48,215 nucleotides of DNA from NCBI GenBank assembly GCA_903875445.1, contig CAIQWD010000038.1:1-48215 (forward strand), in the 5' to 3' direction. The position numbers and the translations under genes are program-made. Below the pieces are notes generated by a model. It was not told the origin of the DNA and searched no databases. It saw nothing but the letters and a program-made list of their open reading frames with translations. The DNA is from an uncultured delta proteobacterium (GTDB lineage: Bacteria; Desulfobacterota; Desulfobulbia; Desulfobulbales; Desulfocapsaceae). Of this stretch, positions 1 to 48,215 are shown one piece after another (within the stretch, counting starts at the first letter, position 1; each line of letters starts with the position of its first letter).

Positions 1-120
1 GATGTCAGGAGATTGATTGCCCAAGCAGCATTGGAAAAAGATTTTCAATTGGTTTGCCCGCTTCCACGCAAATCGATAGCAAATACCTTCGCGGCCGCAA
101 TCATGAAGATCGCGGCATGA
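1..120 (+). pseudogene. Unidentified 3' coding fragment ending in TGA
   Basis: Frame 1 is open from the window edge to a TGA at 118-120 (39 residues, containing VCPLPRKS and ending in IMKIAA). I do not recognise it. It is visibly richer in G and C than the sequence that follows, and it contains a GCGGCCGC site. It is in the same frame as the downstream glycosyltransferase, so the TGA could be a nonsense mutation (for example CGA to TGA) inside one larger gene. The sharp change in base composition fits better with a recombination joint that brought two gene fragments together. Confidence 0.3.
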
Positions 121-1023
121 AACCTTTTCAGGAAACTTCAGATAGTAAATAGACTTGAAAAAATTAATATTCCGATTAAAATTTATTTACATGATTTTTT
201 CTTTATTTGTCCAACTGTATTCTTGTTGAATGAAAAAAATAAATTCTGCAACTTACCTAACACTCTTGAGACTTGTGAAAAATGTATGGAATTCCAATTT
301 GCTGTTAAATCAAGAAATATTAAAACAAAAAATGTGAGAAGTTTTAAAAGCATTGCAGCCTGGAGACAGAATTCAGAAAGACTCTTCAAATCGGCGACAA
401 TGGTTATAACAAGTTCAATGATTGTGCAAAACATATACCAAAGAGCATTTCCTGAAATTTCAAATAAAATGGTTCATTCGGATGAACTGCTGAAGTGTTC
501 TCAAAATTTTAAAAGATTAGATAGCGGTTACAATCCATTTGCCAACAAAACAATTAAAGTTGCCATGGTTGGAAACTGGGTTTTCGAGAAAGGGAAAGAT
601 ATTTTTGAAGAAATGCAAAATGTGATTGATGCAAACAATCTTAAAGAGACGATTAGTCTTTGTTTTATCGGTTATGCAGATATTAATCATTTTGATAGCC
701 GCATAGAATACCTTGGCAAATATAGCCCAGACACTCTGTCTCAAATAATAATGGAGAATAATGTTTCTATTTGTCTCATACCGTCGGTTGTTTGTGAAAC
801 ATTTTGTATTACCGCTCAAGATTGTATTGAAATTGGAATGCCATTAATTGTATTGGGAATTGGAGCAATGAAAGAAAGAGTTACTGACAACGATAAATGT
901 CATATAATTTCAAGTATTTCTGAAGAGACCATACAAAATCTCTCAGACATAGAAATGGCCAATATCATTTTATATGAAACTATCGATTTCTCAAACAAGC
1001 TAAGAAGTACTATCTACTCGTAG
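121..1023 (+). pseudogene. 5'-broken glycosyltransferase (GT4/group 1 type)
   Basis: The reading frame is open from 121, but the first usable start is a TTG at 223. Family-typical sequence lies upstream of that TTG: YLHDFFFICPT at about 187-219, followed by LLNEKNKFC and a CxxC pair, the HDY/CP segment of GT4-like sugar transferases. The C-terminal half carries the nucleotide-sugar-binding Rossmann core: VAMVGNWVFEKGKDIF, then CLIPSVVCETFCITAQDCIEIGMPLIV, the usual E-rich donor site. The N-terminal acceptor domain is missing, so the gene looks truncated or disrupted at its 5' end. It is AT-rich like the next gene, which fits a horizontally acquired surface-polysaccharide locus. A translated product from 223 (266 residues) would probably be inactive. 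Confidence 0.6.
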
Positions 1024-1042
1024 CGAGTTATATTCGTTGGTA

Positions 1043-2458
1043 ATGATTATGTCATTTTTCAAACTTCATTCAAGAAAGTATAAAGTATTCTATATCTCAG
1101 GTTTCTTGTTGATATTTTTTCCGGCATTCGTTTATTTGATAATACAAAAAGCAAATTGGGTGAGATATCCTTACAATGTAACACGCGATTATCAATATGA
1201 CTTTTCTAAAAGTGATTCGCAAATAATAAATATTAAAATAGTAAATAATTCAATTAATATTAGAAACATAAATTTTGATGATAAATCTATATTTTTGAAA
1301 TTGCAAGTCCAGGCCTCAATATTCCTTGGTTCGATATTTACACCGTATATTCATGCATCATCTGCAGGTATTCACAGTTCAACTGCGCTTGAAAAAAACG
1401 CTTCTGGGATACGATATATTAATCTCAGTAAATTTGCAAATCATGCCCTTTCGACTATTGACATCAAGCTAAAATATCTCACTCTCGATAGTCAAGACGC
1501 TCAGTTAATAATTTTTAACAATAGAGCCATTGACGAAAAGAAAATCCTTATTATTTCCCCTCATCCAGACGATGCTGAAATTGCTGCCTATGGCTTATAT
1601 AGTAATAACAAAAATTCTGTTATACTGACCATTACAGCTGGTGAGGCAGGGTTGTCGAGATATGATGAACTGTACACTGACAACTCATCAAAATATTTAA
1701 AAATTGGCCAATTGAGAACATGGAATAGTATTACAGTTCCTTTGCTGGCCGGGTTAAGACCTGATAATTTATTGAATTTGGGTTATTTTGATTCAACTTT
1801 AAAAGAAATGCATAAAGATAAATTTATTACAACTAAAGGACGTTACACCAATTCTCTTGATATAAATTTGTTTAGAAAACAAAATATTTCTCCATTATCT
1901 TCTCTGCTTGACGGTGATTCTAATTGGTCAAGTTATGTTGGCAATATGGAGAAAATACTTAACAAAGTAAAACCTGATATTATTGTAACTCCCTATCCAT
2001 TAATTGATAACCATACCGATCATAAATATTCGACACTCGCTTTATTTGAGGCGATCAAGAATATTGGAATGCACTCTGGTGAACTTTTTTTCTATACAAA
2101 TCATTATGCCTTAACTGAATACTACCCTTTTGGAGAACAAGGCGAATCGGTTACGCTACCGCCAAACTTCGATGACAACCTTTACGCTCGCCGTCTTTAT
2201 TCATTCAATGTATCGGAGTCGCTTCAAATCGATAAATTGTTAGCCTTTGATGCGATGATTGATCTGAGACCCGATACTCACTGGCGCTTTTGGGAAGATC
2301 ATATAAAAATTGCGGCTAAGATATTTGAAAGAAAGGTGCGTGACCTGGAAAAAAGCTACTTCAGGCGAGCTGTAAGAGAAAATGAGCTTTTTTATGTGAT
2401 GAGTGTTGAGGATATTTACTCCGATTCCCTAGTGAAAAGGATAATGGGAAATTTGTAA
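1043..2458 (+). CDS. Membrane-anchored PIG-L family deacetylase
   Basis: This is a predicted metal-dependent N-acetylsugar deacetylase (PIG-L/LmbE fold). A membrane segment lies at about residues 12-30 (FLLIFFPAFVYLII) and is followed by a region of about 130 residues with no recognisable domain. The PIG-L domain starts at about residue 167 with ILIISPHPDDAEIAAYG, the zinc-binding PHPDDAE signature, and continues with ITAGEAG and DNHTDHKYS, the second histidine motif. The protein is longer than standalone PIG-L enzymes because of the anchored N-terminal part. ATG at 1043 is preferred over an in-frame TTG at 1037; 1049 is also possible and no good ribosome site is visible. It is 20 bases from the glycosyltransferase and equally AT-rich, so a role in modifying a surface glycan is plausible. 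Confidence 0.75.
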   Translation: MIMSFFKLHSRKYKVFYISGFLLIFFPAFVYLIIQKANWVRYPYNVTRDYQYDFSKSDSQIINIKIVNNSINIRNINFDDKSIFLKLQVQASIFLGSIFTPYIHASSAGIHSSTALEKNASGIRYINLSKFANHALSTIDIKLKYLTLDSQDAQLIIFNNRAIDEKKILIISPHPDDAEIAAYGLYSNNKNSVILTITAGEAGLSRYDELYTDNSSKYLKIGQLRTWNSITVPLLAGLRPDNLLNLGYFDSTLKEMHKDKFITTKGRYTNSLDINLFRKQNISPLSSLLDGDSNWSSYVGNMEKILNKVKPDIIVTPYPLIDNHTDHKYSTLALFEAIKNIGMHSGELFFYTNHYALTEYYPFGEQGESVTLPPNFDDNLYARRLYSFNVSESLQIDKLLAFDAMIDLRPDTHWRFWEDHIKIAAKIFERKVRDLEKSYFRRAVRENELFYVMSVEDIYSDSLVKRIMGNL

Positions 2459-2550
2459 GAAGAAACTCTGTTTGGTAAAATATATTTGATCGACAAATAA
2501 TCGCTGTGAAAACATTTCTTGCCACAGGCTTATCCTGCCGGGAGATAGCC

Positions 2551-4621: not shown

Positions 4622-5800
4622 TTAATGCAGTACCGATGAGAACTCTTCGAAGACCTTTTCGATGGGGATGGCAAAACCAAGCCCTGCCGTGTCCCTAAGG
4701 TGCATGGTAGCCACCCCACGCACATAGCCTTTCTCATCGATAATTGGCCCACCGCTATTGCCCGGATTAATGGCCGCATCGGTCTGCAGATACACCGGTC
4801 CGTCTTTCTCCATTGTCCGTAAACCGGAAAAAATCCCGGCAGTTACGGTATGCCGCAGCCCCACAGGGCTTCCTATGGCATAGACCTTGTCTCCTTGATG
4901 AAGCTCTGCCCCCTTTGGGGGTTTCTCGAGAAAGGGGCGTTCGCCGGTGTATATGGACAGTAGAGCCAAATCATACTTGGAACTTACCAGGAAGCGATTG
5001 ATGATAAGCTCTTTGCCGTCGGCAAAGAAAATCTTGATTTCAGAGGACTGGGTCTTTCGATCTACCTTTGCCAATTTCCGTTCGTTCTCCTGAAGCATCG
5101 GCAACACCTTTTTTTGTTCCTCCTCGTGCTGATCGATGATCATGGCCAACTGGCTGCGTGAAGGACCCTTCGGTAATTCCTGGTATTTTTGCTTCCATTC
5201 ACTTATCTTCTGCTCCTCGAGTTCATAATACCGTCGATCCTTTTCAATATTGTTGCGCATCTCGGCGGCTTTTTTCTCGTCGAACTGAACCACATGGCGA
5301 TTGGTGACGATATACTTACTATTGACGAAAAAACCCGATCCAGTTCCCAACGGTGTTTCGATGGACACCGTCGCATTCCTCGCCCGTTCGATAATGTTGC
5401 CTTGTACGGCGGGCGCCTCAGGACTCGCCTGTTGCGGTGCGGGCACCTTCACGATGCGATTTTGAACCGGGGCGAGTGGAGCCGCGACAACAGAGGTGTT
5501 TCGAGCCTTGGCAACGGGGGCAACTTCAACCGGTGGCTGAACGGGGGAAGGCGTTGACTTATTGCCGGTGAAATAGTAGGTCGTGGCAGCAACGACCACC
5601 ACCAGAAGAAGCACCTGAAGAAGTTTCATCACCGAACCGGATTTCTCGGACGGGGGTTCTTCTTGCACTTTCTGCTCTTTTAATGCCTCCTCCTCCTCTC
5701 TCTTTCGTTCCTGGATTTTCTGATACTTGGCGAAAATCACCCCACAAACGTCGCATTCCACCATATTATTCTGTTCATGATTACACTTCGGGCAGCGCAT
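4622..5800 (-). CDS. Zinc-ribbon, membrane-anchored trypsin-like serine protease
   Basis: 392 residues. An N-terminal zinc ribbon has Cys3, Cys6, Cys16 and Cys19. A charged stretch leads to a transmembrane helix at about 58-77, then a Pro/Val-rich linker to about 135. The S1 protease domain (HtrA/DegP type) follows, with catalytic residues His169 (TNRHVV), Asp277 (KYDLALL) and Ser349 (NPGNSGGPI). No PDZ domain follows. Unusually, about 80 charged, helical, coiled-coil-like residues (174-252) sit between the His and Asp strands. The topology implies a cytoplasmic zinc ribbon and a periplasmic protease. It is divergent from arfB. Family assignment is firm; substrate and role (envelope quality control or regulated cleavage) are inferred. 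Confidence 0.85.
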   Translation of the reverse strand: MRCPKCNHEQNNMVECDVCGVIFAKYQKIQERKREEEEALKEQKVQEEPPSEKSGSVMKLLQVLLLVVVVAATTYYFTGNKSTPSPVQPPVEVAPVAKARNTSVVAAPLAPVQNRIVKVPAPQQASPEAPAVQGNIIERARNATVSIETPLGTGSGFFVNSKYIVTNRHVVQFDEKKAAEMRNNIEKDRRYYELEEQKISEWKQKYQELPKGPSRSQLAMIIDQHEEEQKKVLPMLQENERKLAKVDRKTQSSEIKIFFADGKELIINRFLVSSKYDLALLSIYTGERPFLEKPPKGAELHQGDKVYAIGSPVGLRHTVTAGIFSGLRTMEKDGPVYLQTDAAINPGNSGGPIIDEKGYVRGVATMHLRDTAGLGFAIPIEKVFEEFSSVLH

Positions 5801-5944
5801 ATCTCTTACCGACAGGTTATTTTTTCCAGGTGATGACTCGACAGGACCTCTTTATGCGGGTATCATAGCAAGATCCGTAACATTATTCAATTAACCGAAA
5901 GCATATCCGATTTTTTTTTAACGACCCTTTGGAGTTTTGTCGCC

Positions 5945-6364
5945 GTGCCGCTCATTATTAACCCCAGGATTTCACTTCCCGACCATGAAATCACCCTCAT
6001 TGCCATTCGGGCCCAGGGTGCCGGAGGGCAGAACGTCAACAAGGTGGCCAGTGCCATTCACCTGCGCTTTGACATCCGCGGCTCCTCCCTACCGGACATC
6101 TACAAGGAGCGCCTGCTGGCCATGAGCGACCAGCGCTTGACTGGCGACGGCATCCTCGTCATCAAGGCACAACAGTATCGAACCCAGGAGAAAAACCGAA
6201 CGGATGCCCTGGAACGATTGGCGAGAATTATCCGTCGCGTCACCGTCACGGAAAAGAAGCGAACACCGACCCGTCCCTCGGTGACCGCCCGACAAAAACG
6301 CGTAGAAAGCAAGACCAGACGCGGCAGAATCAAAACCATGCGCAAAAAAGTAAGTGATTCCTGA
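5945..6364 (+). CDS. arfB: Alternative ribosome-rescue factor / peptidyl-tRNA hydrolase ArfB
   Basis: ArfB (YaeJ) hydrolyses peptidyl-tRNA on ribosomes stalled on non-stop mRNA. The protein (139 residues, usual length) has the release-factor GGQ motif in RAQGAGGQNVNK near residues 24-35. A strongly basic C-terminal tail (RVESKTRRGRIKTMRKKV) follows; in known ArfB this tail occupies the empty mRNA channel. The start is GTG at 5945, ten bases after TTTGGAG; no ATG start exists in frame. It precedes the flavin reductase gene by 40 bases and may share its transcript. Confidence 0.93.
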   Translation: MPLIINPRISLPDHEITLIAIRAQGAGGQNVNKVASAIHLRFDIRGSSLPDIYKERLLAMSDQRLTGDGILVIKAQQYRTQEKNRTDALERLARIIRRVTVTEKKRTPTRPSVTARQKRVESKTRRGRIKTMRKKVSDS

Positions 6365-6404
6365 GCACCAATCAACCCACTATTATAACCCGAGGACTAT
6401 CGCC

Positions 6405-6905
6405 ATGCAAACCGTAGGATATCTGGAAAATGCCGACCAGATGATGGAAAGAATCAAGAAGGGAGCCTTTCTCACCGTCCAGGCCGACGGGAAGGTGAAC
6501 ACCATGACCATCGGCTGGGCCACTATCGGCTACATCTGGCAACGGTCGGTGTTGATGATCGCCGTGCGGGATTCGCGCCACACCTTTTCGCTTCTGGAAA
6601 AAACCGACAACTTTACGGTCACCGTTCCCGCTCCCGGTACCTACCAGGATGCGGTCATGACCTGCGGCACCAAATCCGGTCGCGATCTCGATAAATTTAA
6701 GGAATGCTGTCTTAAGCAGAAGGCGGCACAGCAGGTGCCGTCGCCGATAGTCGATATTCCCGGCAACCATTATGAATGCCGGATCGTCTATAAGTCGGCA
6801 ATGGACAGCACCTTTCTGCATACCGATTTGGAAAAACTGTATCCGAAAAAAGATTACCACACCCTCTACTTCGGAGAGATTCTCGCCTGTTATATAACTT
6901 CGTAG
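6405..6905 (+). CDS. Flavin reductase family protein (flavoredoxin-like)
   Basis: A 166-residue FMN-binding split-barrel protein of the flavin reductase/flavoredoxin family, which passes electrons to flavins or small redox partners in the cytoplasm. Family features are MTIGWATIGYIWQRSVLMIAV (the FMN-binding strand pair) and RHTFSLLEKTDNFTVTVP. The N-terminal sequence GAFLTVQADGKVNTMTIGW resembles proteins annotated as flavoredoxin in sulfate reducers. ATG at 6405 is chosen because CGAGGACT precedes it; an in-frame GTG at 6354 lies inside arfB and has no ribosome site. The exact partner is not known. Confidence 0.82.
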   Translation: MQTVGYLENADQMMERIKKGAFLTVQADGKVNTMTIGWATIGYIWQRSVLMIAVRDSRHTFSLLEKTDNFTVTVPAPGTYQDAVMTCGTKSGRDLDKFKECCLKQKAAQQVPSPIVDIPGNHYECRIVYKSAMDSTFLHTDLEKLYPKKDYHTLYFGEILACYITS

Positions 6906-38385: not shown

Positions 38386-38640
38386 CCCAGCTTCAATACG
38401 AATCTTTTCAATTTCCTTGTGCCCTCTGGTTTGAGCATATTGCAATGAATTGGAGGTTGGCTTAACTCCTTTTGACAGCAATAGTTTGACCATTTCAACT
38501 TGTCCTCTACCGGCAGCTAATCCTAGGGCTGCTCCACCTCCAGAGTTTACATCCATTCCGGCATCAAGAAAAAGTCATCTCCTGAAAGGCTCTTTTTTAT
38601 CTCCTCATCAAAACTTATTGCCTAGCAAAATGGAGCTATG
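38374..38640 (-). pseudogene. Ankyrin-repeat gene remnant
   Basis: Minus-strand sequence encodes DAGMDVNSGGGAALGLAAGR then GQVEMVKLLLSKGV, a clear ankyrin repeat, ending [15 protein letters not shown] and TAA. Just upstream, an adjacent frame reads EEIKKSLSGDDFF; joining it needs a frameshift near 38565-38575. No start codon or ribosome site is in place. It is a broken 3' end of an ankyrin-repeat protein, tail-to-tail with the macro-domain remnant. Confidence 0.55.
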
Positions 38641-38721
38641 ATCAACCACAGTTACTGTGTTTGCTGTAGCTTTGCAAACCATTTGGCTAGTGACCGGGGA
38701 GAGATCCACAAAAAAGAAAGG

Positions 38722-38892
38722 CTACTTGCATTGATCATGTAGATTGCCCTTGGTCCAGAAAATTCCTATTGACTTAATGTTGTCAAGACGAATAAACTGA
38801 AATAATCTTAAGTTGAACACCTCAATAGCTTCAGTGGCTGAATCTCCTGGTGGGATCCGACCGTGAAACTCTTTCTTTATGATGTTTTTTGT
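38722..38892 (-). pseudogene. Unidentified C-terminal gene remnant
   Basis: A 56-codon minus-strand frame with protein-like composition (FHGRIPPGDSATEAIEVF, then FNLRLFQFIRLDNIKSIGIF) and a TAG stop. It has no Met, GTG or TTG start and follows an in-frame TAA. It reads like the end of a real protein, but I do not recognise the family. It lies upstream of the ankyrin remnant on the same strand and could be part of the same lost locus. Confidence 0.35.
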
Positions 38893-39236
38893 TTATTCAG
38901 ATCTATGTATTTGTTTCGGTCCGGAGAGTTTGAGGTTTTTTTCCACCGAACGCAATATTATTCAAGAAAGAACTAATTGTAACATATAATTGCCCATATT
39001 CATTTTACAACGGGCAAAAGCACGATTAGCTTTTCCCGTTTTTTCACTGTAGCAAGCATCTTTTTTCGTACTCTGCAGAGGAATCCCGTCTGGGGGATTT
39101 TTTCTCTGCCAGGGAAGCATTACTTCGCTGTATGACCAACGTTGTGGCTATCATACCGGCCCGCTGCTGCTGGTAATGCTGTTGTGGATAGTCCACTCTC
39201 TTTGAACGAGTTAACCACAATAGTAAAGGAGGAAAC
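38893..39236 (+). other. Upstream region of the respiratory module
   Basis: 344 bases between the last remnant and the haem-porin gene. It contains an orphan terminator (39009-39044) and the leader of the module, including TTGTGG and CCACAA arms around 39180-39220 that could form a loose stem before the strong ribosome site. No clear -35/-10 pair was found. Confidence 0.35.
39009..39044 (+). terminator. Orphan rho-independent terminator
   Basis: AACGGG-C-AAAAGC pairs with GCTTTTCCCGTT with a single bulged C and a seven-base loop, followed by T residues. It is a good plus-strand terminator, but the nearest intact upstream plus-strand gene ends at 38239. It may be left from a deleted gene, or may end a small RNA, and it insulates the respiratory module from upstream transcription. 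Confidence 0.7.
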
Positions 39237-40538
39237 ATGAAAAAAATGTCTCTGGCTTCGTATGTGGGCATCTTGACTGGATTTTTAATGCTTCTGTCAG
39301 TTCATAACGTTTGGGCCATACCGGCATTTGCAAGAAAATACCAGACCTCGTGTGTGACCTGCCACGCCCCTTTCCCTACTCTGACAGCAGTTGGTGAATC
39401 CTTTCGACTGAATGGTTATAAATTGCCCAACGATGAACTATATGTGAAGGACAAACCGGTCAGTATGGGGGCGGAGGCCTACAAAAAAATGTTTCCCGAT
39501 TCAGTCTGGCCGTCAGATATCCCGTGGATGCCTCCAGTCTCAATTCTGGTTAACAGCAACATCACGACGAATTTCAATGGTCCGGAAACAAAGAAAACTA
39601 AATTTAATCTGCCATCAGACGCCTCAATTCTTGCTGCTGGGACTTTAGGGGACGATATATCGTTTTTTACCGAGCTTGCTTTTGATAATGCCGACAGTTC
39701 CTCAAAGGTCAACGCATGGTTGATGTATCAGGGGCTCGGCAGCAAACTTTTCGGCGATAACCATTTGAATATTAAAGCCGGAACCGTCGGAGACCAGGAA
39801 TTAGGATTGCCAAATGCTAGAAATCCCGGAAAATTTTCAAATTCCGACTATCTTTATCATCAAGCACTTGCAATCGATAGTCACCCGGGAATGGAGCTTA
39901 ACGGCTTTGGCCAAATTTGGCGATATGCCGCAGGCATAGTCGAGAGCGACACGACTCAAAATAAAAAAGATTATTATGCCGCGTTTTCATTGAAATTCGG
40001 TGGCTTGGGCTATAGTGGTATAAATAGCAAGTCGGCCAGTGAAGAAGGTATATCCAGTTCTCCGACTGGATACTGGCGGGACGATTCCATTCGCATGGGC
40101 GTCTTTGCCTATCGGGGATTTAAGGACAAGGATCCCGATAATGCAGAAACCTATGATCGTTTCGGGGGAGACATACGAGTCAACTATTCCGACTTGTCAC
40201 TGGTGGGTGGATATGCATACGGAAAAGATAGGAGCATAACTTTCAATGAGGATTTTCCCGAACAAAATATCTGGTTTGGCGAGGTTGACTATTATATCTT
40301 TCCTTGGTTGATCGGCTTCAGTCGGTATGAATCGATAACTACCTCCAACAGCGATAATTCCGATGAAAATTACAGCGATCGTGCGCGAATCGTGCCTGGT
40401 TTCATCTTACTAGCGCGTGCAAACGTCAAGGCAACCCTTGAAGCCCAATTTTATACAAAGGATAAGTTCGCAACGGCAGCCGATCATGACACGAGCTTTT
40501 ATAATAACATGTCCTTCTCACTCAACTGGGCATATTAA
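39237..40538 (+). CDS. Monohaem cytochrome-porin fusion (Cyc2-like architecture)
   Basis: 433 residues. Signal peptide to about residue 27 (VWA/IPA). Immediately after it comes PAFARKYQTSCVTCHAPFPT with one haem c motif (Cys39, Cys42, His43), then GESFRLNGYKL. The remaining roughly 370 residues alternate in beta-strand style with many Tyr/Trp/Gly and end in an aromatic residue (SLNWAY), as in outer-membrane barrels. N-terminal haem plus barrel in one chain is the Cyc2 plan known from iron oxidisers, and the motif context (FAR-x6-CxxCH-x3-P-x-L-x3-G) resembles it. A wider family of such fusions exists, so iron oxidation is not proven. SD AAAGGAGGAAAC. First gene of the module. Confidence 0.75.
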   Translation: MKKMSLASYVGILTGFLMLLSVHNVWAIPAFARKYQTSCVTCHAPFPTLTAVGESFRLNGYKLPNDELYVKDKPVSMGAEAYKKMFPDSVWPSDIPWMPPVSILVNSNITTNFNGPETKKTKFNLPSDASILAAGTLGDDISFFTELAFDNADSSSKVNAWLMYQGLGSKLFGDNHLNIKAGTVGDQELGLPNARNPGKFSNSDYLYHQALAIDSHPGMELNGFGQIWRYAAGIVESDTTQNKKDYYAAFSLKFGGLGYSGINSKSASEEGISSSPTGYWRDDSIRMGVFAYRGFKDKDPDNAETYDRFGGDIRVNYSDLSLVGGYAYGKDRSITFNEDFPEQNIWFGEVDYYIFPWLIGFSRYESITTSNSDNSDENYSDRARIVPGFILLARANVKATLEAQFYTKDKFATAADHDTSFYNNMSFSLNWAY

Positions 40539-40668
40539 GCGCCCACAACAACGCCAGACAGGAGGTCTCTTTTTATAATTAAGTACAATATGAAGTTGAG
40601 TTTCTTTAATTGTTTAATCCCAACTACAGGGATTTTCTAACAAACCATCTCTTCAAGGACTTAAATAG

Positions 40669-41307
40669 ATGAAAAAAAGACAGACTCTAAATAACTTTGT
40701 TTATGGTTTTCTGTTATTGCTGGTTCCGACGATTTTCTTTCTGATGGCCTCGGATATCCTGGCTCAGGAAGGGTCTGGCAAGATTCAGGGAGTGATTAAA
40801 AGCCCATATGTTAAACGCTTTCCAGCACTAATTTTTATCGATCATGTCGACGGAACATACCCACCACCGGCAGAAAAGGTCCATGTTAGTCAAAAGGACC
40901 TGTTATTTGCACCCCATATTAATCCTATTTTGAATGGAACGACTGTTGATTTCACCAATGATGACACAGTGGTGCACAACGTATTTACTCCGCCAGGATC
41001 GGCCTCAGGCTTCAATCTCGGCAACTACGGTCAGGGCGTTGCCAAATCGTATACTTTCAACAACCTCGGTGTTTCCACTCTTCTATGCAGCGTGCATCCG
41101 GAAATGGTTGCCTTTGTAATTGTCCTCCAGAATCCCTATTATGCCATCTCGGACAATGCTGGTAATTTTTTAATCGACAACGTCCCCCCTGGAACTTACC
41201 AAATCAAGTTCTGGAATGAAAAGCTTGAGGCGCCACCTCAATCCGTGACAGTGGTAGCGGGAAAAGCAGAAACGGTGACCTTTAACGACCTCAAAAAGAA
41301 GGATTGA
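40669..41307 (+). CDS. Periplasmic cupredoxin with C-terminal beta-sandwich domain
   Basis: 212 residues. A signal peptide or anchor lies at about 11-32. The cupredoxin domain runs from about 36 to 153, with a full type-1 copper set: His103 (VVHNVF), Cys140, His143 and Met146 in CSVHPEM. A short carboxypeptidase-regulatory-like beta domain follows (GNFLIDNVPPGTYQIKFWNEKL). It is probably a one-electron carrier in the periplasm. Its position next to a haem-porin and a bc complex resembles the role of rusticyanin in acidophilic iron oxidisers, but sequence similarity to rusticyanin is not claimed. SD AAGGA. The next gene starts two bases after its stop. Confidence 0.82.
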   Translation: MKKRQTLNNFVYGFLLLLVPTIFFLMASDILAQEGSGKIQGVIKSPYVKRFPALIFIDHVDGTYPPPAEKVHVSQKDLLFAPHINPILNGTTVDFTNDDTVVHNVFTPPGSASGFNLGNYGQGVAKSYTFNNLGVSTLLCSVHPEMVAFVIVLQNPYYAISDNAGNFLIDNVPPGTYQIKFWNEKLEAPPQSVTVVAGKAETVTFNDLKKKD

Positions 41308-41308
41308 T

Positions 41309-42121
41309 ATGGCCCGAACAACTCTCAGCCGGAAATGGCTACCGGCATGTATTCTGCTGATGGTGATGATCTCAGGGGTACCCGTTCTCGCTGACACGAT
41401 TATATTCCAAGACCCGAAAGCACAGCAGAACGGTACCGTCATCAGCGAGGACGATTCAGCCGTTACCATCCGGTTTCCTAAAACATCCATAAAATCGATC
41501 AACAAAACCTCCGAAAAAAAGCAGGTGCCGGATGCAGACAAAGTAATTCTTGAGGAGAAAGATGGTTTCCATATCTTGAGAATTCCAAATAATCTCATCC
41601 AAGTCCGGTCCACTGCCGGCCAGGGGAAAAATCCTCTCATGCAGCAGGAAACCATGCAATCATCGCCTAGTGAAGTAAAAGTACATGCGCAGACTTCATC
41701 CAGTCAACCGGAAGAGCACATGCAGTCTCCGCCCGCTGAGCCACAAGAACAGGCCCCGCGAATTCAGAATAAACTTGTTGAAGAGGAAATGGGCAAAGTG
41801 CAAGGGACGATTTTGTGGCGGGGTATGCCGTTACAGGGAAGCGTCAAAATCGTTCTGACAGAATATAAAGGATTTTCATTTGCCTCATTGAAAAAAACGC
41901 TTTCCTCCGGTTCAACGATCCAATCAGAGGAAAATGATATCGTCCTCAGCACTCACACGGACAACAAAGGGAATTATTCCTTCGCAAAGGTTCCACCGGG
42001 GTCTTACCGCCTGTACTGGCAACCTCCGGGAGAAACGGAGTTTATTCACAGATTGCGTGACAAGCCGGATTTCGAGGTTGTCACTGGTAACATGACCACT
42101 CTGAACATACCTGAGAAGTGA
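41309..42121 (+). CDS. Secreted protein with carboxypeptidase-regulatory-like domain
   Basis: 270 residues. Signal peptide to about residue 28 (GVPVLAD). The N-terminal domain (30-100) is small and mixed, with DTIIFQDPKAQQNGTVISED. A low-complexity Gln/Pro/Ser/Glu linker spans about 105-155. The C-terminal domain (160-270) is a CarboxypepD_reg-like beta sandwich (GKVQGTILWRGMPLQGSVKIVL; DNKGNYSFAKVPPGSYRLYW). It has no haem or copper motif. It may scaffold or anchor the cupredoxin or haem-porin. SD AGAAGG overlaps the end of the cupredoxin gene, so translation is coupled. Confidence 0.7.
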   Translation: MARTTLSRKWLPACILLMVMISGVPVLADTIIFQDPKAQQNGTVISEDDSAVTIRFPKTSIKSINKTSEKKQVPDADKVILEEKDGFHILRIPNNLIQVRSTAGQGKNPLMQQETMQSSPSEVKVHAQTSSSQPEEHMQSPPAEPQEQAPRIQNKLVEEEMGKVQGTILWRGMPLQGSVKIVLTEYKGFSFASLKKTLSSGSTIQSEENDIVLSTHTDNKGNYSFAKVPPGSYRLYWQPPGETEFIHRLRDKPDFEVVTGNMTTLNIPEK

Positions 42122-42158
42122 ACAGACCCAGGATAGGACAAAGATGTAAGGAGTTGAA

Positions 42159-42281
42159 ATGGCGACAAATCACTCGCAATATAATTTCATTAAGGAAATG
42201 TTGATTGCCTTTGTCGGCGGCGGCTGCTTGGGACTTGTGGTACTAATTGTCGCCCTGACTATGGTTGAGCATTTTAAATAA
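42159..42281 (+). CDS. 40-residue single-span membrane peptide of the bc complex operon
   Basis: A short gene between the secreted protein and the Rieske gene. It begins MATNHSQYNFIKEM and continues with one hydrophobic span (LIAFVGGGCLGLVVLIVALT), ending VEHFK. TAAGGAGTTGAA gives it a good ribosome site. Size, single span and position resemble the small accessory subunits of bc1 and b6f complexes (PetG/PetL/PetN-like in kind, not in sequence). A role as a bc-complex subunit is inferred. Confidence 0.6.
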   Translation: MATNHSQYNFIKEMLIAFVGGGCLGLVVLIVALTMVEHFK

Positions 42282-42327
42282 TACCTGAATTGACACGACA
42301 TTCATTGGCCAGAGCAGGAGGATTAAA

Positions 42328-42792
42328 ATGTTCATAGATCAAACGTCCAGACGCAATTTCATCAATCGCCTAGGATGGGGTGTTTTTCTAAGTACTATTG
42401 GCGGAATTATGGTGGCCTCGATCCGTCTACTGGCTCCCAATGTCCTGTATGAACTGCCGAAAGAATTTAAAGTCGGATACCCGAAAGATTACCCTGAGGG
42501 CGTTCACTTTATTCCGGCGCGTAGGATATTCGTGCTTCGTGAGAACAACCGGTTTCGGGCTGTCAGCGCCGTTTGCACCCACCTAGGATGTACGATGCGG
42601 TGGTCCGAACAGGATCTGGCCTGGAAATGCCCATGCCATGGAAGTGTTTTTAATGAGAAAGGAGGGGTAATTAAGGGCCCGGCGACCAGACCTCTCCCCT
42701 GGTATGATATATCCGTGTCGTTGGACGGCCAATTGCTTGTGGATCTGAATAAAGATGTCTCTCCAGACCACAGTGTCGTCGTCAATGTCTAA
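42328..42792 (+). CDS. Rieske iron-sulfur protein of a cytochrome bc complex
   Basis: 154 residues. The N-terminus has a twin-arginine motif (SRRNFINRLGW) and a membrane helix at about 17-37, consistent with Tat-dependent insertion. The 2Fe-2S ligands are Cys83 and His85 (CTHLGC) and Cys101 and His104 (CPCHGSVF), with disulfide Cys88-Cys103 expected. GPATRPLPWYDI closes the cluster-binding domain. It carries electrons from quinol at the P side to haem c. Strong SD AGGAGG. Next gene is cytochrome b. Confidence 0.95.
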   Translation: MFIDQTSRRNFINRLGWGVFLSTIGGIMVASIRLLAPNVLYELPKEFKVGYPKDYPEGVHFIPARRIFVLRENNRFRAVSAVCTHLGCTMRWSEQDLAWKCPCHGSVFNEKGGVIKGPATRPLPWYDISVSLDGQLLVDLNKDVSPDHSVVVNV

Positions 42793-42824
42793 CACCGTCA
42801 ATTGTTCATTGGAAAGTGGCCATC

Positions 42825-43943
42825 ATGACTGAAGAAGATACTACGACTTCACCCAGGAATCGGTTCGCAAGATCTATCCTTCGCGAAAAAATTCCCGTTA
42901 GCAGATGGGTAACTAATAGAATTCTCGGTTTGGGCGCGATCAATTTCTATCTCTTTGCTCTCCTAACCATCACCGGCACCCTGTTGATGGTGTATTATGT
43001 GCCCTCTACAACCCAGGCATACAACGACATCAAAGACCTTGGGACCACCGTCAGTTTTGGTAGTATTGTCCGCAACATGCATCGATGGTCTGCCTTTCTG
43101 ATGATCATATCCGGATTTTTGCACATGAGTCGGGTTTTCTTCACCGCAGAATATCGCGAACCCCGCGAGTTTAATTGGCTTGTTGGTCTCTTCCTCTTCC
43201 TGATGATCCTTGGGATGGCATATACCGGATACACGCTCCCCTGGGATCAAAAATCATACTGGGGATTGACGATCATGTCTCAAATCCTGGAGGCCATCCC
43301 TGGTATCGGATCAAAACTTCAATATCTGGTCCTTGGCGGGACAGAGGTTGGACAAAATACGTTAACCCGTTCCTTTGTGATGCATGTAAAACTTCTGCCT
43401 CTTCTTATGAGCATGCTCATGGCGGTACATTTCTGGCGGATTTGGAAAGACGATCACATTACTCTGACCTTCGCCGGCGAAGATCATACAGAATCCCCTA
43501 ATCAGTTGGAACAACCCTCTGTGACGTGGAGATATATCCTCACAAGAGAAACAAGCAAGTTTCTCCTAGTACTCTTGTTTGTGCTTGTTTTTTCGATTCT
43601 CTTCAATGCGCCGCTTGAAGAACAAGCTAATCCGATGGTTACTCCTGACCCGGTGAAAGCCCCATGGTTCTTTGTTGGACTTCAGGAGGTTTTGTCCTGG
43701 GGGGCACCGTTCTGGACCGGAATTGTTGCTCCCCTTCTCGCCATCGTGGCCGTTGCCGTAATTCCCTATTTTGATCATGGTCGTGAAGGCATCGGCGTTT
43801 GGTTCCATCCTAGCCGCCGCTTGTCGAACGTCCTGTTTACTGCAGCCGTTACCATTTTTATCGGCCTAATCATCGTTGGCGAATTTATGCGTGGGCCTGG
43901 CTGGATATTTTATTGGCCATGGCAACACTGGTCGGTAAATTAA
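42825..43943 (+). CDS. Cytochrome b of a bc complex (b6-type spacing)
   Basis: 372 residues with about eight membrane helices. Haem ligands are His86/His100 and His187/His202. The second pair has 14 residues between them, as in cytochrome b6, rather than 13 as in bc1. A subunit-IV-like portion follows in the same chain. At the quinol-oxidation loop the usual PEWY reads KAPWFF (residues 278-283), lacking the Glu. The C-terminus (GPGWIFYWPW) is aromatic. ATG at 42825 is chosen; GTG at 42816 is possible. It probably oxidises menaquinol. The octahaem cytochrome gene follows by 30 bases. Confidence 0.93.
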   Translation: MTEEDTTTSPRNRFARSILREKIPVSRWVTNRILGLGAINFYLFALLTITGTLLMVYYVPSTTQAYNDIKDLGTTVSFGSIVRNMHRWSAFLMIISGFLHMSRVFFTAEYREPREFNWLVGLFLFLMILGMAYTGYTLPWDQKSYWGLTIMSQILEAIPGIGSKLQYLVLGGTEVGQNTLTRSFVMHVKLLPLLMSMLMAVHFWRIWKDDHITLTFAGEDHTESPNQLEQPSVTWRYILTRETSKFLLVLLFVLVFSILFNAPLEEQANPMVTPDPVKAPWFFVGLQEVLSWGAPFWTGIVAPLLAIVAVAVIPYFDHGREGIGVWFHPSRRLSNVLFTAAVTIFIGLIIVGEFMRGPGWIFYWPWQHWSVN

Positions 43944-43973
43944 GCCGAGTTCTCTGGTGTGACTGAGGAAAAG

Positions 43974-45947
43974 ATGAGAGACATATTTCAGTGGATTTTC
44001 GGCCCCTTGGTCCTAGTAGTTATACTTCTTTTTGCCGGTCAGATCTGGAAAGAGTATCACCCTCCTTATCTGGAATACCAGAAACAGTTCAAGGCGATGT
44101 TGGTTCAAAAGGCCAATCCGGACGCAAAGTCGGTGCAATTCAACTATGGTGTCCGGCAGCGCTGGATCAAGGCACTAAACCGTGCGGACCGCTGTGAGAC
44201 CTGTCATCTGGGTGTCAGCGACCCTCGCTTTATAGACGCCAAGGAGCCTTTTAAGACGCATCCGGACTTCATGACACATGATTTTGGAAAATTCGGGTGC
44301 ACGGTCTGTCATGCCGGCCAAGGTAGAGCCGTGACCCTTGCAGCCGCACACGGACCGGTTGAAAACTGGAACGATGCACTTTACCATTCCAGCTTCATAG
44401 AAAATTCATGCCCCCAGTGCCACGGTGTACTTCCAACGAATAAGATGCCGGAATACACCCACGGGAAGTCTCTTTTTAATGAAGACGGGTGCTTGGGCTG
44501 TCATAAAGTAGAGGGGCAGAAAAGGACACAGGTCGGACCACCACTCAATATCATGGGTGCCCGGGTCAAGACCGACTGGCTGTTTCGTTGGATTCTTGCC
44601 CCAAGAGCCTATCTTCCTCATACCCATATGCCGGATTATACGTTTTCTGAGTCACAGGCAGCCAATATTGCCTTTTTCCTCACGAAGGATGGGCTTACGC
44701 AACAATTGGAATTAACCGGTTCATATGAGAACGGAAAAAGGATTTTCAATGAATCGCGATGCCTAAGCTGCCATACCGTAGGCGGAGTCGGCGGCATTAT
44801 TGGACCCGATCTGGGCAAGGTTGCTACTAAATTGTTGCCTGAAAGGCTCCTCCAGACCATAACCAATCCGCATAAGCTCTGGCCGGAAACCCAAATGCCG
44901 ATTTATGGTTTTACTGATTCCGAAGCTCTAGATGTGGCGACCTTTATAGATCAAGAATACATCGATTTTGATTTGACAGATCAACAGACTGCCCAGCAGA
45001 ACACACTTGTGAATAAGGCGGATGCCGTTGCTGGACGGAAACTGGTTCAGGAGTATGGCTGTATCGGTTGCCACGGGAAAATAAGCGGAATAAAAGATGA
45101 GGGCGAAATCGGGCCTGACCTGACGAGTATTGGAAACACCCACATCAGTCACTTTGAATTCGGGAGTGTCGATCTACCCCCGAAGGACCAGACCGTTCCC
45201 AATTGGCTATATAATAAAATGTTGGACCCCCGATTGTACAAAGTTGATCTCAAGATGCCTTATTTTTCCAATGAACCCGATAAGGCCATAGCGGTCACTA
45301 CCTATCTGCTAAGTCTGAAAGGTGAACTCCGAGTGCCTAATACCTACAAGCACCCCTTCGAACAGGCGCCGAGTACATATTCTCCCCAGGGAGAAGTTGG
45401 TATGATTATAGACAAATTCCGGTGTCTCGTGTGCCACAAGATTTACGGAAACGGCGGCACTATGGCGCCGGAATTAACATGGGAAGGGAGTCGCGTTCAA
45501 AAGGATTGGCTGTTCAGGTATATGAAAAACCCGTCTGCCCTTCGGCCTCTTCTTGTGGAGCGCATGCCCCGATTTAAAATGACCGACGCGGAAATTGAGG
45601 CTTTGTACAACTATTTTCACAGCACTCTGGTTGATAACCGGGTTGAAGACTTGGCTGTGGGAGAGGCAATGAATATGCCTCATAACCAACAGGAAATCAT
45701 CCAGGTTGGAAGCGATCTTTACTATAAGAATAATTGTGATGCGTGTCACACCATCAATCTCAAAGGTGGAGCGATTGCGCCGGACCTGACCGACAGCGGC
45801 AAACGGCTTCTCACCCAATTTGTCGAATTCTATTTGCACGATCCGAAGGCATTTGTAACACAGTCAGTTGAACCGGTTTATCACTTCTCAAAACCGGAAA
45901 TAACGGCATTAACCGCCTTCATCATAAGTCATAAGGAGGAGAAGTGA
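43974..45947 (+). CDS. Membrane-anchored octahaem cytochrome c (bc complex c-subunit)
   Basis: 657 residues. TM helix at about 8-25, then eight CxxCH motifs in order: CETCH, CTVCH, CPQCH, CLGCH, CLSCH, CIGCH, CLVCH, CDACH. The first three form a compact N-terminal block. Haems 4-8 lie in five successive class-I-like modules, each with a distal-ligand segment: HMPDY, QMPIY, KMPYF, RMPRF, and EPVYHF in the last, which lacks Met. It probably replaces cytochrome c1, forming a wire from the Rieske protein. ATG at 43974 is preferred (GAGGAAAAG just upstream) over GTG at 43959. Its stop overlaps the next start (TGATG). Confidence 0.92.
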   Translation: MRDIFQWIFGPLVLVVILLFAGQIWKEYHPPYLEYQKQFKAMLVQKANPDAKSVQFNYGVRQRWIKALNRADRCETCHLGVSDPRFIDAKEPFKTHPDFMTHDFGKFGCTVCHAGQGRAVTLAAAHGPVENWNDALYHSSFIENSCPQCHGVLPTNKMPEYTHGKSLFNEDGCLGCHKVEGQKRTQVGPPLNIMGARVKTDWLFRWILAPRAYLPHTHMPDYTFSESQAANIAFFLTKDGLTQQLELTGSYENGKRIFNESRCLSCHTVGGVGGIIGPDLGKVATKLLPERLLQTITNPHKLWPETQMPIYGFTDSEALDVATFIDQEYIDFDLTDQQTAQQNTLVNKADAVAGRKLVQEYGCIGCHGKISGIKDEGEIGPDLTSIGNTHISHFEFGSVDLPPKDQTVPNWLYNKMLDPRLYKVDLKMPYFSNEPDKAIAVTTYLLSLKGELRVPNTYKHPFEQAPSTYSPQGEVGMIIDKFRCLVCHKIYGNGGTMAPELTWEGSRVQKDWLFRYMKNPSALRPLLVERMPRFKMTDAEIEALYNYFHSTLVDNRVEDLAVGEAMNMPHNQQEIIQVGSDLYYKNNCDACHTINLKGGAIAPDLTDSGKRLLTQFVEFYLHDPKAFVTQSVEPVYHFSKPEITALTAFIISHKEEK

Positions 45948-46423
45948 TGCCAAGATCCTCCCCCACACTTGTGATCATCATCTTAGTATTTCTGTTGGAA
46001 TCCGGTTTGATGTTCTCGACCGGTATGGACCCAGCGTATTCCGATACCTCAGGCGTTGTGTCCAGAAAAAAATTTGTCCTGCCCCCAAATAATGAAACCG
46101 GGTTGGCGCGCAACCTGAAAAATGGCAAAGCGCTGTATCACTACTATTGTGCCACATGCCATGGTGAAACCGGGAACTCTGACGGTTTCAACTCATACAG
46201 TTTGACACCTCCCCCCCCGAAACTTAGTGACGGAAGATTTATGATACCCCTGTCCGATACTACCATAAAACGTGTCATCAAAGAGGGAGGTGCCAGTCTT
46301 AGTCTTTCCCCTCATATGCCGTCTTGGGACGGGGTTCTAACCGATCAGAATATTGCAGATATTACCTGTTTTGTACGCACTTTGGTTGTGGTAAACCCAA
46401 CATTTGTACAACCTAGTTTATAA
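45947..46423 (+). CDS. Monohaem cytochrome c
   Basis: 158 residues. Signal or anchor helix at about 8-25 (VIIILVFLLESGLMF). A class I cytochrome domain runs from about 60 to 150 with YCATCHGETGNSDG and a downstream Met ligand in SPHMPSWDGVLT. LTDQNIADITCFVRTL is the usual C-terminal helix. It probably carries electrons between the octahaem subunit and another partner. The ATG overlaps the octahaem stop (TGATG) and AAGGAGGAGAAG is a strong ribosome site, so production is coupled to the complex. Confidence 0.93.
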   Translation: MPRSSPTLVIIILVFLLESGLMFSTGMDPAYSDTSGVVSRKKFVLPPNNETGLARNLKNGKALYHYYCATCHGETGNSDGFNSYSLTPPPPKLSDGRFMIPLSDTTIKRVIKEGGASLSLSPHMPSWDGVLTDQNIADITCFVRTLVVVNPTFVQPSL

Positions 46424-46441
46424 AAACCAAGGAGAATGTCC

Positions 46442-48115
46442 ATGTCCATGTTCTGCCATCAATGCCAGGAAACCGCTAAAAACACCGGCTGTACCATCCA
46501 GGGTGTCTGCGGTAAAAAGGAAGAAGTGGCCAACCTGCAGGATCTTTTCATCTGGACGCTGAAAGGGATTTCGGTCTGGGGCGTCAAGGGGAAGGAGTTT
46601 GATATCTATGATGAAGCGATTGGTTTCTTCATTACCAAGGGCCTTTTCTCAACCATAACCAACGCCAACTTCAGCCGAAGCGATTTCATAAACTTCATCA
46701 AACAGGGCCTCGTCCTTCGTGAGCGCCTGAAGGGACAGGTTCTTGAGGCATATCAGAAGGCGCAGGGGAAGGCCTTTACCGCAGACGTTCCCGCATGTGC
46801 AACCTTTACCTGCAAAGACGAAGCGGAGATCCTAGCCAAGGCTGCAAGCGGGGCCGGCGGCTGGCTGGAGATAGTCGATGAAGATGAGCGTTCACTCAAG
46901 GCCACCATCCAGTATGGCCTGAAGGGTATGTCGGCCTATGCTGAACATGCCTATCAATTAAAAAAACACAGCCGGAAGATCTTCGAGTTTCTGATGGAGG
47001 GACTCAACGCCCTGGTCGATCCTACGCTTACCCAGGACGATCTTCTGACCATGGTCCTGAAGACCGGGCAAATGGGCGTCGAGACCATGGCGCTGCTCGA
47101 CAATGCCAATGCCGACGGCTATGGCGTCCCGAAGATCACTATCGTCAATCTCGGGGTCGGCAAAAATCCAGGAATCCTTGTCACCGGCCACGATCTGGTT
47201 GATCTGCACGACCTCCTGGAGCAAACCAAAGACCAGGGGATCGATATCTACACACACAGTGAGATGCTGCCGGCCAATTATTATCCAAAATTGCACCAAT
47301 ATAAACACCTGATCGGCAACTACGGCAATGCCTGGTGGATGCAGAAAACGGAGCTTGAATCCTTTCACGGCCCGATCCTCTTTACCTCGAACTGTATAGT
47401 TCCTCCCAAGCAGGAACACATGGACAGGATCTTTACCACCGGGGCAGTCGGTTTCGAGGGCTGTGTTCATATCCCTGACCGTGCGGACGGGAAGTCAAAA
47501 GACTTCTCACAGATTATAGAGAAGGCCAAGACCTGCAAACCTCCCGAGCAGATCGAACAGGGCTCCATTGTCGGCGGATTCGGCCACAGTCAGGTGCTGG
47601 AACTGAAAGACAAGATTATTGAGGCGGTAAAATCGGGAGCCATCAAACGCTTTGTCGTCATGGCAGGTTGCGACGGCCGCCATAAGACTCGCGACTACTA
47701 TACGAAGGTGGCCGAGTTGCTGCCCAAAGATGCCGTCATCCTCACGGCTGGATGCGCCAAGTATAAGTATCTGAAGCTTCAACTAGGGGATATCGGCGGC
47801 ATCCCCCGGATCCTCGACGCCGGTCAATGTAATGATTCCTATTCCCTGGCTGTGATCGCCATGGAACTGCAAAAGGCCTTCGGCCTCAAGGATATCAACG
47901 ACCTGCCGCTTTCTTTCGATATCGCCTGGTATGAGCAGAAAGCAGTCCTTGTTCTGCTGGCTCTCCTTTCTTTAGGAGTAAAGGGAATTCGGCTGGGTCC
48001 GACCCTCCCTGGATTTCTCTCCCCCAATGTCGGTAAAACCTTGATCGAAAAATTCAATATCAAAGCGATCACCACCCCTGAAGAAGATGTCGCTGCTATG
48101 ATGGCAGGTCATTAA
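46442..48115 (+). CDS. hcp: Hydroxylamine reductase / hybrid cluster protein Hcp
   Basis: 558 residues at most. The N-terminal 4Fe-4S site is CxxC-x8-C-x5-C (Cys5, Cys8, Cys17, Cys23), the pattern of Hcp from strict anaerobes. Hybrid-cluster ligands lie in GHDLVDLHDLLEQT, FTSNCIVPP, GAVGFEGCVHI, LTAGCAKYKY and DAGQCNDSYS. Known activities are NO reduction and hydroxylamine reduction, with a role in nitrosative stress. ATG at 46442 is chosen because AAGGAG lies eight bases upstream; ATGs at 46436 and 46448 are in frame. It starts 18 bases after the cytochrome c stop, so it may share its transcript. No hcr reductase gene is visible in the window. Confidence 0.95.
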   Translation: MSMFCHQCQETAKNTGCTIQGVCGKKEEVANLQDLFIWTLKGISVWGVKGKEFDIYDEAIGFFITKGLFSTITNANFSRSDFINFIKQGLVLRERLKGQVLEAYQKAQGKAFTADVPACATFTCKDEAEILAKAASGAGGWLEIVDEDERSLKATIQYGLKGMSAYAEHAYQLKKHSRKIFEFLMEGLNALVDPTLTQDDLLTMVLKTGQMGVETMALLDNANADGYGVPKITIVNLGVGKNPGILVTGHDLVDLHDLLEQTKDQGIDIYTHSEMLPANYYPKLHQYKHLIGNYGNAWWMQKTELESFHGPILFTSNCIVPPKQEHMDRIFTTGAVGFEGCVHIPDRADGKSKDFSQIIEKAKTCKPPEQIEQGSIVGGFGHSQVLELKDKIIEAVKSGAIKRFVVMAGCDGRHKTRDYYTKVAELLPKDAVILTAGCAKYKYLKLQLGDIGGIPRILDAGQCNDSYSLAVIAMELQKAFGLKDINDLPLSFDIAWYEQKAVLVLLALLSLGVKGIRLGPTLPGFLSPNVGKTLIEKFNIKAITTPEEDVAAMMAGH

Positions 48116-48215
48116 CAGATGTAAGCTTGTACAGGGGTTGTACAAAACTGATAAAAAGTGTCTTTTCGGCAAGCCTGCCATGACACCATAAAAGTGATCT
48201 GCTACAATCGGTACC
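48116..48215 (+). other. Region downstream of hcp
   Basis: Two close copies of TTGTACA(A/G) (48127-48134 and 48138-48145) are followed by a compound inverted repeat (GTGTC ... GACAC with GGCA/TGCC inside, about 48158-48184). No T run follows, so termination is not shown. Confidence 0.3.

Follow-up and report, generated by a model that had tools for sequence, protein, structure and literature searches.

How might a sulfate-reducing bacterium join its quinone pool to the cell exterior through a small porin-bound haem? This question is raised by eight genes of an uncultured delta proteobacterium of the Desulfocapsaceae (GenBank assembly GCA_903875445.1, contig CAIQWD010000038.1, positions 1 to 48,215; this whole stretch of 48,215 nucleotides is hereafter called the window). 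As read from the sequence and its open reading frames (ORFs), the genes run in one direction at 39237-46423 on the + strand, from a putative Cyc2-type haem-porin and a blue copper protein (cupredoxin) to a Rieske/cytochrome b (bc) complex with octahaem and monohaem cytochromes c (Table 1). A first-pass annotation had proposed a pathway comparable to that of acidophilic iron oxidisers, working in either direction. Judging from its conserved parts and order, we consider it reasonably likely that the genes together form a single electron path linking the quinone pool with the cell exterior. The best reading of the sequence comparisons is that it would represent a widespread variant of known extracellular electron-transfer systems, namely a quinone-linked outer-membrane route.

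A Cyc2-type haem-porin

Published Cyc2 proteins are marked by AXPXFAR[Q/K][T/Y] before a CXXCH motif, by PXL four residues after it, by a length of at least 365 aa and by a single haem, and the Cyc2 of Mariprofundus is described as a 16-strand porin near OprO and OprP (PMC8406198; papers are cited here for the parts of them available to us). The first protein of the cluster, initially annotated as an outer-membrane-type haem-porin, bears out that description, since its N-terminal part reads AIPAFARKY-QTS-CVTCH-APF-PTL, in agreement with the published pattern, and it resembles Cyc2 in its length (433 aa), in a signal peptide recognised by sequence reading and in its 16 modelled strands. Among 58 porin ORFs, defined as profile matches scoring 85 bits or more, the strict Cyc2 pattern was present in 25 and a looser pattern in 54. 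Modelling of the barrel, which had been suggested as a check, was performed with AlphaFold2 on 47 aligned porins and yielded the 16 strands with a pLDDT of 77.9 and a pTM of 0.81, the lowest certainty applying to the loops and to the part that joins haem domain and barrel. A Foldseek search with this model returned PorB as the top match by E-value (3.5e-12), while among the matches listed the highest query TM-scores were those of OprP (0.60) and OprO (0.59). The porin had no Pfam or NCBIfam match at 1e-3 (DUF2490, with an E-value of 0.028, fell short of the cut-off), and a five-porin profile found no match by sequence in the PDB. The porin is identified here by the published motif together with its fold. 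By these criteria of sequence and modelled fold it is of the Cyc2 type, with haem binding as a predicted property and iron oxidation as a possible one.

The Cyc2 porins of Acidithiobacillus, Mariprofundus PV-1 and Leptospirillum (Cyt572) share with the window protein the signal peptide, the one haem, both motifs, a length above 365 aa and the 16-strand barrel. The window porin shares its gene cluster with a Rieske/b complex and a cupredoxin, an arrangement that does not appear in the available parts of the Cyc2 papers PMC8406198 and PMC7029218. Fe(II) oxidation has been demonstrated for the Mariprofundus protein and, by citation, for two further Cyc2 proteins, and the same authors warn, as we do, that a Cyc2 homologue is not always an iron oxidase (PMC8406198).

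The cupredoxin and its secreted companion

The second protein had been read as a type-1 copper protein, and it indeed has the full His, Cys, His, Met ligand set (H103, C140, H143 and M146), which is kept in 88, 93, 93 and 92, respectively, of 93 homologues (L052 and L127 were left out as copies). Its score against Pfam Copper-bind was 19.2 bits with a cut-off of 21.2, and the homologue at locus L032 passed at 27.7. Amicyanin is a weak PDB match (E 0.067), and we take the spacing of the C-x2-H-x2-M loop to be amicyanin-like. In five of the 93 homologues (L033, L034, L094, L113 and L128) Asn replaces the first His ligand; all five belong to porin-cupredoxin pairs at which no bc genes were detected. 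Two of these pairs (L033, 7483-13033; L034, 2759-7961) adjoin HAMP-PAS and Cache-HAMP histidine-kinase proteins, and these neighbours hint at a possible sensing role for the pairs concerned.

Homologues of the secreted companion encoded by the third gene lie beside or near a porin at L032, L035, L054, L104, L111, L117, L120 and L125. The model of this protein was weak (pLDDT 66.6) and gave no Foldseek match at 1e-3. Cupredoxins of the same family also occur at Brocadia-type loci (L068, L071, L072, L075-L078 and similar) with no porin or bc genes detected nearby; at L075 the genes following the cupredoxin are, by eye, isoprenoid-synthesis and envelope genes.

The Rieske/cytochrome b complex

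The claim of a complete bc complex with an octahaem subunit was well founded, as the cluster encodes a Rieske protein, a cytochrome b with two haem-binding His pairs (spaced x13 and x14) and a c-type subunit whose 662-aa ORF contains eight CXXCH motifs. The quinol-site position of cytochrome b reads KAPWFF, where canonical complexes have PEWY. The pattern KAPW[YF] was present in 14 of 15 loci examined and failed to match in L116. Cytochrome b contains no Cys, and a haem c_n was among the features considered and rejected. A Cys just before the MGG/LGG stretch was found only in L117, L063 and L123 among the aligned cytochrome b rows; the module copy at L032 has no such Cys, the aligned L032 row being that of its other complex. 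This other Rieske/cytochrome b cluster of L032 includes a three-haem cytochrome and is located at 1-2520 (+), on the contig of genome G083 that also holds a full module.

The best PDB matches of the Rieske protein, 9rk4 and 9rk3, are Kuste4569 and Kustd1480 of the anammox bacterium Kuenenia (PMC12954380). The complexes to which these belong, Kuste4569-4574 and Kustd1480-1485, resemble that of the window in having a b6-like cytochrome b, a subunit IV and a multihaem cytochrome c in place of cytochrome f. They differ in their NAD(P) oxidoreductase and haems c_n, whereas the window has no flavoprotein and a cytochrome b without Cys. Neither a porin nor a cupredoxin is mentioned in the paper on the anammox complexes (PMC12954380).

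The annotation's analogy with acidophiles held for the classes of parts and did not hold for the affinity of the bc genes. Acidithiobacillus ferrooxidans is an acidophile whose bc complex is not known to include an octahaem subunit. Its rus and pet operons comprise the same classes (Cyc2, blue copper protein and bc complex) but are separate, and pet has the order cycA-sdrA-petA-petB-petC with a cytochrome c1 (PMC10654088). The bc part of the window is nearest, among solved structures, to the two anammox proteins in its Rieske subunit and to ExtP, below the cut-off, in its cytochrome b.

This latter match brings in the possibility that the genes represent an ext operon of the Geobacter kind, acting on selenite or tellurite oxyanions. 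In NCBIfam, ExtP ranked first for cytochrome b (229.1 bits), the C-terminal part of the chain matched ExtQ (61.3 bits) and the octahaem protein matched ExtS among others (81.5 bits). In addition, extHIJKLMNOPQS likewise groups a porin gene with genes for Rieske, cytochrome b, subunit-IV-like and c-type subunits, and so serves as a precedent for such clustering (PMC5877670). However, all three scores are below the curated cut-offs (290, 150 and 100 bits, respectively), on which ground Ext membership was rejected. The rhodanese, the porin of another, non-haem-fused type and the several extra multihaem proteins of ext have no counterpart in the window, and the available parts of the ext paper mention no blue copper protein (PMC5877670). 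We regard an oxyanion-reducing system of this kind as extremely improbable.

Conservation of the gene order

Searching the gene order across genomes, a check proposed at first pass, gave a positive outcome. In a phylum sample of 395 genomes the porin had matches in 38 (at 1e-3) and the octahaem protein in 26 (at 1e-20). Among 20 neighbourhoods around the better porin matches, one (L032, G083) showed the full eight-gene order, while L035 has porin, cupredoxin, companion and octahaem genes without bc genes. A wider scan of named genomes with a cupredoxin profile found 435 relatives. Locus counts were made on the best 80; a porin was counted if it preceded the cupredoxin on the same strand by no more than 1.5 kb. 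It did so at 34 of the 80 loci (31 of 65 with at least 2.2 kb of upstream sequence), and Rieske and cytochrome b genes followed downstream at 22 (22 of 62 with at least 3.5 kb downstream). Both arrangements coincided at 12 of the 80 loci, and 36 had neither. By record title, the 12 comprise one Deltaproteobacteria (L052, the same locus as L032), one Nitrospirae, one Bacteroidetes, five Ignavibacteria/Ignavibacteriae, a Scalindua, a Brocadiaceae, a Polarisedimenticola and Geothrix oryzisoli SG189. These titles span six phylum-level groups, or five under the schemes that place Ignavibacteria in Bacteroidota. Because the order recurs in other phyla, the eight-gene arrangement is more than chance. 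Eleven of the 12 loci come from metagenome bins, and any single title may therefore be a binning error.

Partial arrangements were also seen. At L055 (Syntrophobacteraceae) the bc genes, 40-aa peptide and cupredoxin are accompanied by a different Cyc2-type porin of the FARQTG form just upstream, encoded on the opposite strand (5048-6442, -). L054 (Desulfatitalea) combines porin, cupredoxin and companion; bc genes were not seen at this locus, and its genome gave no match to the octahaem protein at 1e-20. At L035, L059, L108 and L120, porin and cupredoxin adjoin an octahaem- or multihaem-type protein with no bc genes between, some of these contigs being cut.

Distance matrices of five proteins (porin, cupredoxin, Rieske, cytochrome b and octahaem protein) were compared for 11 full loci. 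They correlated at 0.75-0.93, and for each of the ten protein pairs none of 5000 permutations reached as high a value. This fits a joint inheritance of the module proteins, although shared vertical descent would produce the same pattern.

Shared presence and absence was then evident in 47 genomes of the Geothrix genus, where the octahaem protein occurs in 9 (1e-50) and the porin in 11 (1e-10). Nine genomes have both, two the porin alone, none the octahaem protein alone and 36 neither (Fisher 4e-8, kinship ignored). The complete order, including a flavoprotein gene described below, is on a single contig in seven of the nine carriers; in G446 and G441 it is cut by contig ends. Both porin-only genomes also carry the cupredoxin; in one the contig stops inside the flavoprotein gene, and the other has no flavoprotein or bc gene on its 8.7-kb contig.

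The host genome and the origin of the module

The assignment to a Desulfobacterota-like host agrees with the genome, which is 95% complete and has dsrA, dsrB and DsrD (94.5 bits) in order, indicating a sulfite reductase of the reductive type. A single Rieske protein was detected. The genome also encodes an aa3-type oxidase (G000:C102, L149 4886-9958; SCO1, COX1, COX2 and ctaB-like genes), the CuA subunit (COX2) of which has no haem c. A search for MtrB/PioB in the host gave no match, its controls being likewise silent.

The expectation that close relatives would share the module was abandoned after searches of same-genus, same-family and same-order genomes. The 14 other genomes of the genus contained no cytochrome b above 38% identity, porin and octahaem not having been searched there, so that the link between porin and bc genes could be examined in distant genomes only. 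For the refuting conditions set at first pass the outcome is mixed, with a well-modelled barrel on one side and no close cytochrome b in the genus on the other. Three same-family and ten same-order genomes of the phylum sample had no porin (1e-3) and no octahaem protein (1e-20). Since the 14 genomes lack a close cytochrome b, the module appears patchy and was perhaps acquired by the host, or else it may have been lost in the relatives. The G+C content of the module (0.469, mean 0.52) was dropped as proof of transfer, given that one of 64 equal-sized stretches of positions 1-39000 was as low.

A proposed route between quinone pool and cell exterior

In the route that we favour, menaquinol would be oxidised at the b6f-like Rieske/cytochrome b complex. 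The high-potential electron would move by way of the Rieske centre to the N-terminally anchored octahaem cytochrome c and from there, with the cupredoxin, the monohaem cytochrome or both as carriers, to the haem in the Cyc2-type barrel. This haem could exchange the electron with a small or soluble partner outside, such as a high-potential metal species (e.g. Mn or chelated Fe). We infer the order of these steps, their use as a single path, the membrane sidedness, the direction and the substrate. As to direction, we lean slightly towards a net outward flow, because the host has a sulfite reductase and the carriers are heterotrophic. The window copy, having no NAD(P)-type flavoprotein, would then be a plain quinol branch.

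Several observations weigh against such a single route. The halves of the module also occur apart, since the porin, which adjoins 12 of the 22 bc-bearing cupredoxin loci in accordance with the proposed link, was not within 1.5 kb at the other 10 (7 of which have upstream sequence and 3 of which lack it), and since no bc genes were found at 22 of the 34 porin-cupredoxin loci, some of which end at a contig edge. The correlated distances could also result from common vertical descent, and the host's aa3-type oxidase could itself accept the electrons of the module. Finally, the potentials measured for relatives (Kuste4569 +303 mV and Kustd1480 +335 mV, PMC12954380; Cyc2 of PV-1 +208 mV, PMC8406198) would, if transferable, place the porin below the Rieske centre, which makes export uphill and the route poor for ferrihydrite. 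On the same condition and by analogy, the route would suit high-potential acceptors, and Fe(II) uptake would also be allowed.

An inward flow would have the porin oxidise Fe(II) or another reduced compound, after which cupredoxin and cytochromes would hand the electrons on to the aa3 oxidase. Electrons would also be driven uphill to quinone by way of the bc complex, and in flavoprotein-bearing carriers on to NAD(P)H. The reductive type of the host's dsrABD counts against this; an energy yield from iron oxidation with sulfate would not be expected. The mainly heterotrophic character of the Geothrix and Ignavibacteria carriers counts in the same direction, and the module in the window showed no oxidase gene. 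Points in its favour are the oxidase cluster elsewhere in the host and the Fe(II) oxidation shown for Mariprofundus Cyc2 (PMC8406198). Moreover, the dominant first neighbours of the Leptospirillum bc1 are Brocadiales, Desulfobacterota and Nitrospinales (PMC10654088), and nitrate-dependent iron oxidation is reported in anammox enrichments (PMC10732223). We consider inward flow unlikely.

The separation of the halves at some loci would also suit an ordinary respiratory bc complex that uses the monohaem cytochrome or the cupredoxin to supply the aa3 oxidase, in O2 respiration or defence, with the porin in a separate role. The host's one detected Rieske protein and its oxidase are consistent with this, and a periplasmic donor for the oxidase is needed because its CuA subunit carries no haem c. 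However, the oxidase genes are on another contig (C102, as against C38), the presence or absence of porin and octahaem protein agrees in 45 of the 47 Geothrix-genus genomes, and the gene order is kept across groups. We judge an ordinary respiratory role quite improbable.

Relation to a larger, flavoprotein-bearing module

At 18 of the 22 bc-bearing cupredoxin loci we found a flavoprotein, about 570-660 aa long, that combines a pyridine-nucleotide oxidoreductase domain with iron-sulfur domains (matched by Pfam Pyr_redox_2 and Fer4 in the three that were checked); it had no match at 1e-60 in L052, L055, L057 and L123, nor in the window. More tentatively than for the route itself, these loci may represent a new, horizontally spread respiratory module whose Rieske/b complex is connected, via a cupredoxin, with an outer-membrane haem-porin of the Cyc2 type. 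In most carriers the additional NAD(P) arm would make it an extracellularly coupled, quinol-bifurcating generator of NAD(P)H, and the window would hold a reduced form without that arm in a sulfate reducer. If true, the quinone pool would be joined to the exterior by a single-haem porin and a copper protein rather than by large multihaem conduits. The module occurs in the sulfate-reducer lineage and in some anammox bacteria, as well as in Ignavibacteria, Acidobacteria and further groups, and a cultured carrier, Geothrix oryzisoli SG189, can be compared with module-free species of its genus.

For anammox bacteria the module would, if this holds, supply a candidate for the missing high-potential partner of the Kustd1480-1485 complex, for which, as PMC12954380 states, a favourable reaction able to drive NAD(P) reduction has yet to be proposed. 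At L117 a haem-porin and two cupredoxins precede a Rieske protein that matches Kustd1480 at 7e-61; L083 and L125 start in the same way, and a similar locus with a single cupredoxin is L111, whose title is Alphaproteobacteria. Such an arrangement is no general rule, since at L063, L081, L082, L096, L100 and L101 a cupredoxin is joined by a Rieske gene, upstream sequence is present and no porin lies within 1.5 kb. We regard a link to the Kustd1480-type complex as a lead, Kuenenia's own cluster lying outside the comparison. Anammox bacteria are reported to perform metal-oxide respiration as well as nitrate-dependent iron oxidation, and Cyc2 genes are reported in metagenome-assembled genomes of Planctomycetota (PMC10732223); a porin-cytochrome complex has been proposed for anammox bacteria (PMC7188810).

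No description of this module was found among the titles and abstract openings listed in searches of open-licence literature. The text of PMC12133095 contains no Cyc2, cupredoxin or Rieske, those of PMC7188810 and PMC10732223 no cupredoxin or Rieske, that of PMC6295460 no Rieske, bc1 or Cyc2, and that of PMC7029218 no cupredoxin. One Cyc2-bearing iron oxidiser has cupredoxins in a separate cluster (PMC12016527).

Layout of the locus

Table 1. Genes of the cluster and the evidence for their assignment.
Feature	Position	Strand	Evidence
Cyc2-type fused monohaem cytochrome-porin, 433 aa, signal peptide	39237..40538	+	motif, 16-strand model, OprP/OprO-like
type-1 (blue) copper protein, 212 aa, C-terminal CarboxypepD_reg-like domain	40669..41307	+	four ligands, Copper-bind near-match
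secreted companion protein, 270 aa, CarboxypepD_reg-like C-terminus	41309..42121	+	homologues near porin in other loci
40-aa single-transmembrane peptide	42159..42281	+	homologues at equivalent position in other loci
Rieske iron-sulfur protein, 154 aa	42328..42792	+	Pfam PF00355, 49.3 bits
cytochrome b, b6-like and subunit-IV-like parts fused in a single chain	42825..43943	+	library matches, His pairs
octahaem c-type cytochrome, N-terminal anchor	43974..45947	+	eight CXXCH; Pfam and NCBIfam cytochrome c domains; alignment
monohaem cytochrome c	45947..46423	+	Cytochrome_CBB3, 40.9 bits; start overlaps octahaem stop

The co-directional and tight arrangement first noted for these genes was confirmed, the eight lying where they had been placed, with intergenic gaps of 130, 1, 37, 46, 32, 30 and -1 bp in gene order. 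The gaps were computed with the ATG starts preferred on reading the sequence (42825 for cytochrome b, 43974 for the octahaem and 45947 for the monohaem cytochrome); alternative GTG starts are possible at 42816 for cytochrome b and 43959 for the octahaem protein. Terminator-like sites across 38600-48215 numbered 10, as against 10.1 in shuffled sequences.

A gene for a hybrid cluster protein of the hydroxylamine reductase family (hcp, 46436-48115, +) starts 12 bp past the monohaem cytochrome gene. It had no tblastn match in 100 related loci (L032-L131) and was consequently dropped as a ninth member of the module. The ORF list, limited to 60 aa or more, holds seven of the eight genes, the 40-aa peptide being below that size. 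Homologues of this peptide occur at the equivalent position in L032, L053 and L055, and it is possibly a small subunit of the Rieske/b complex.

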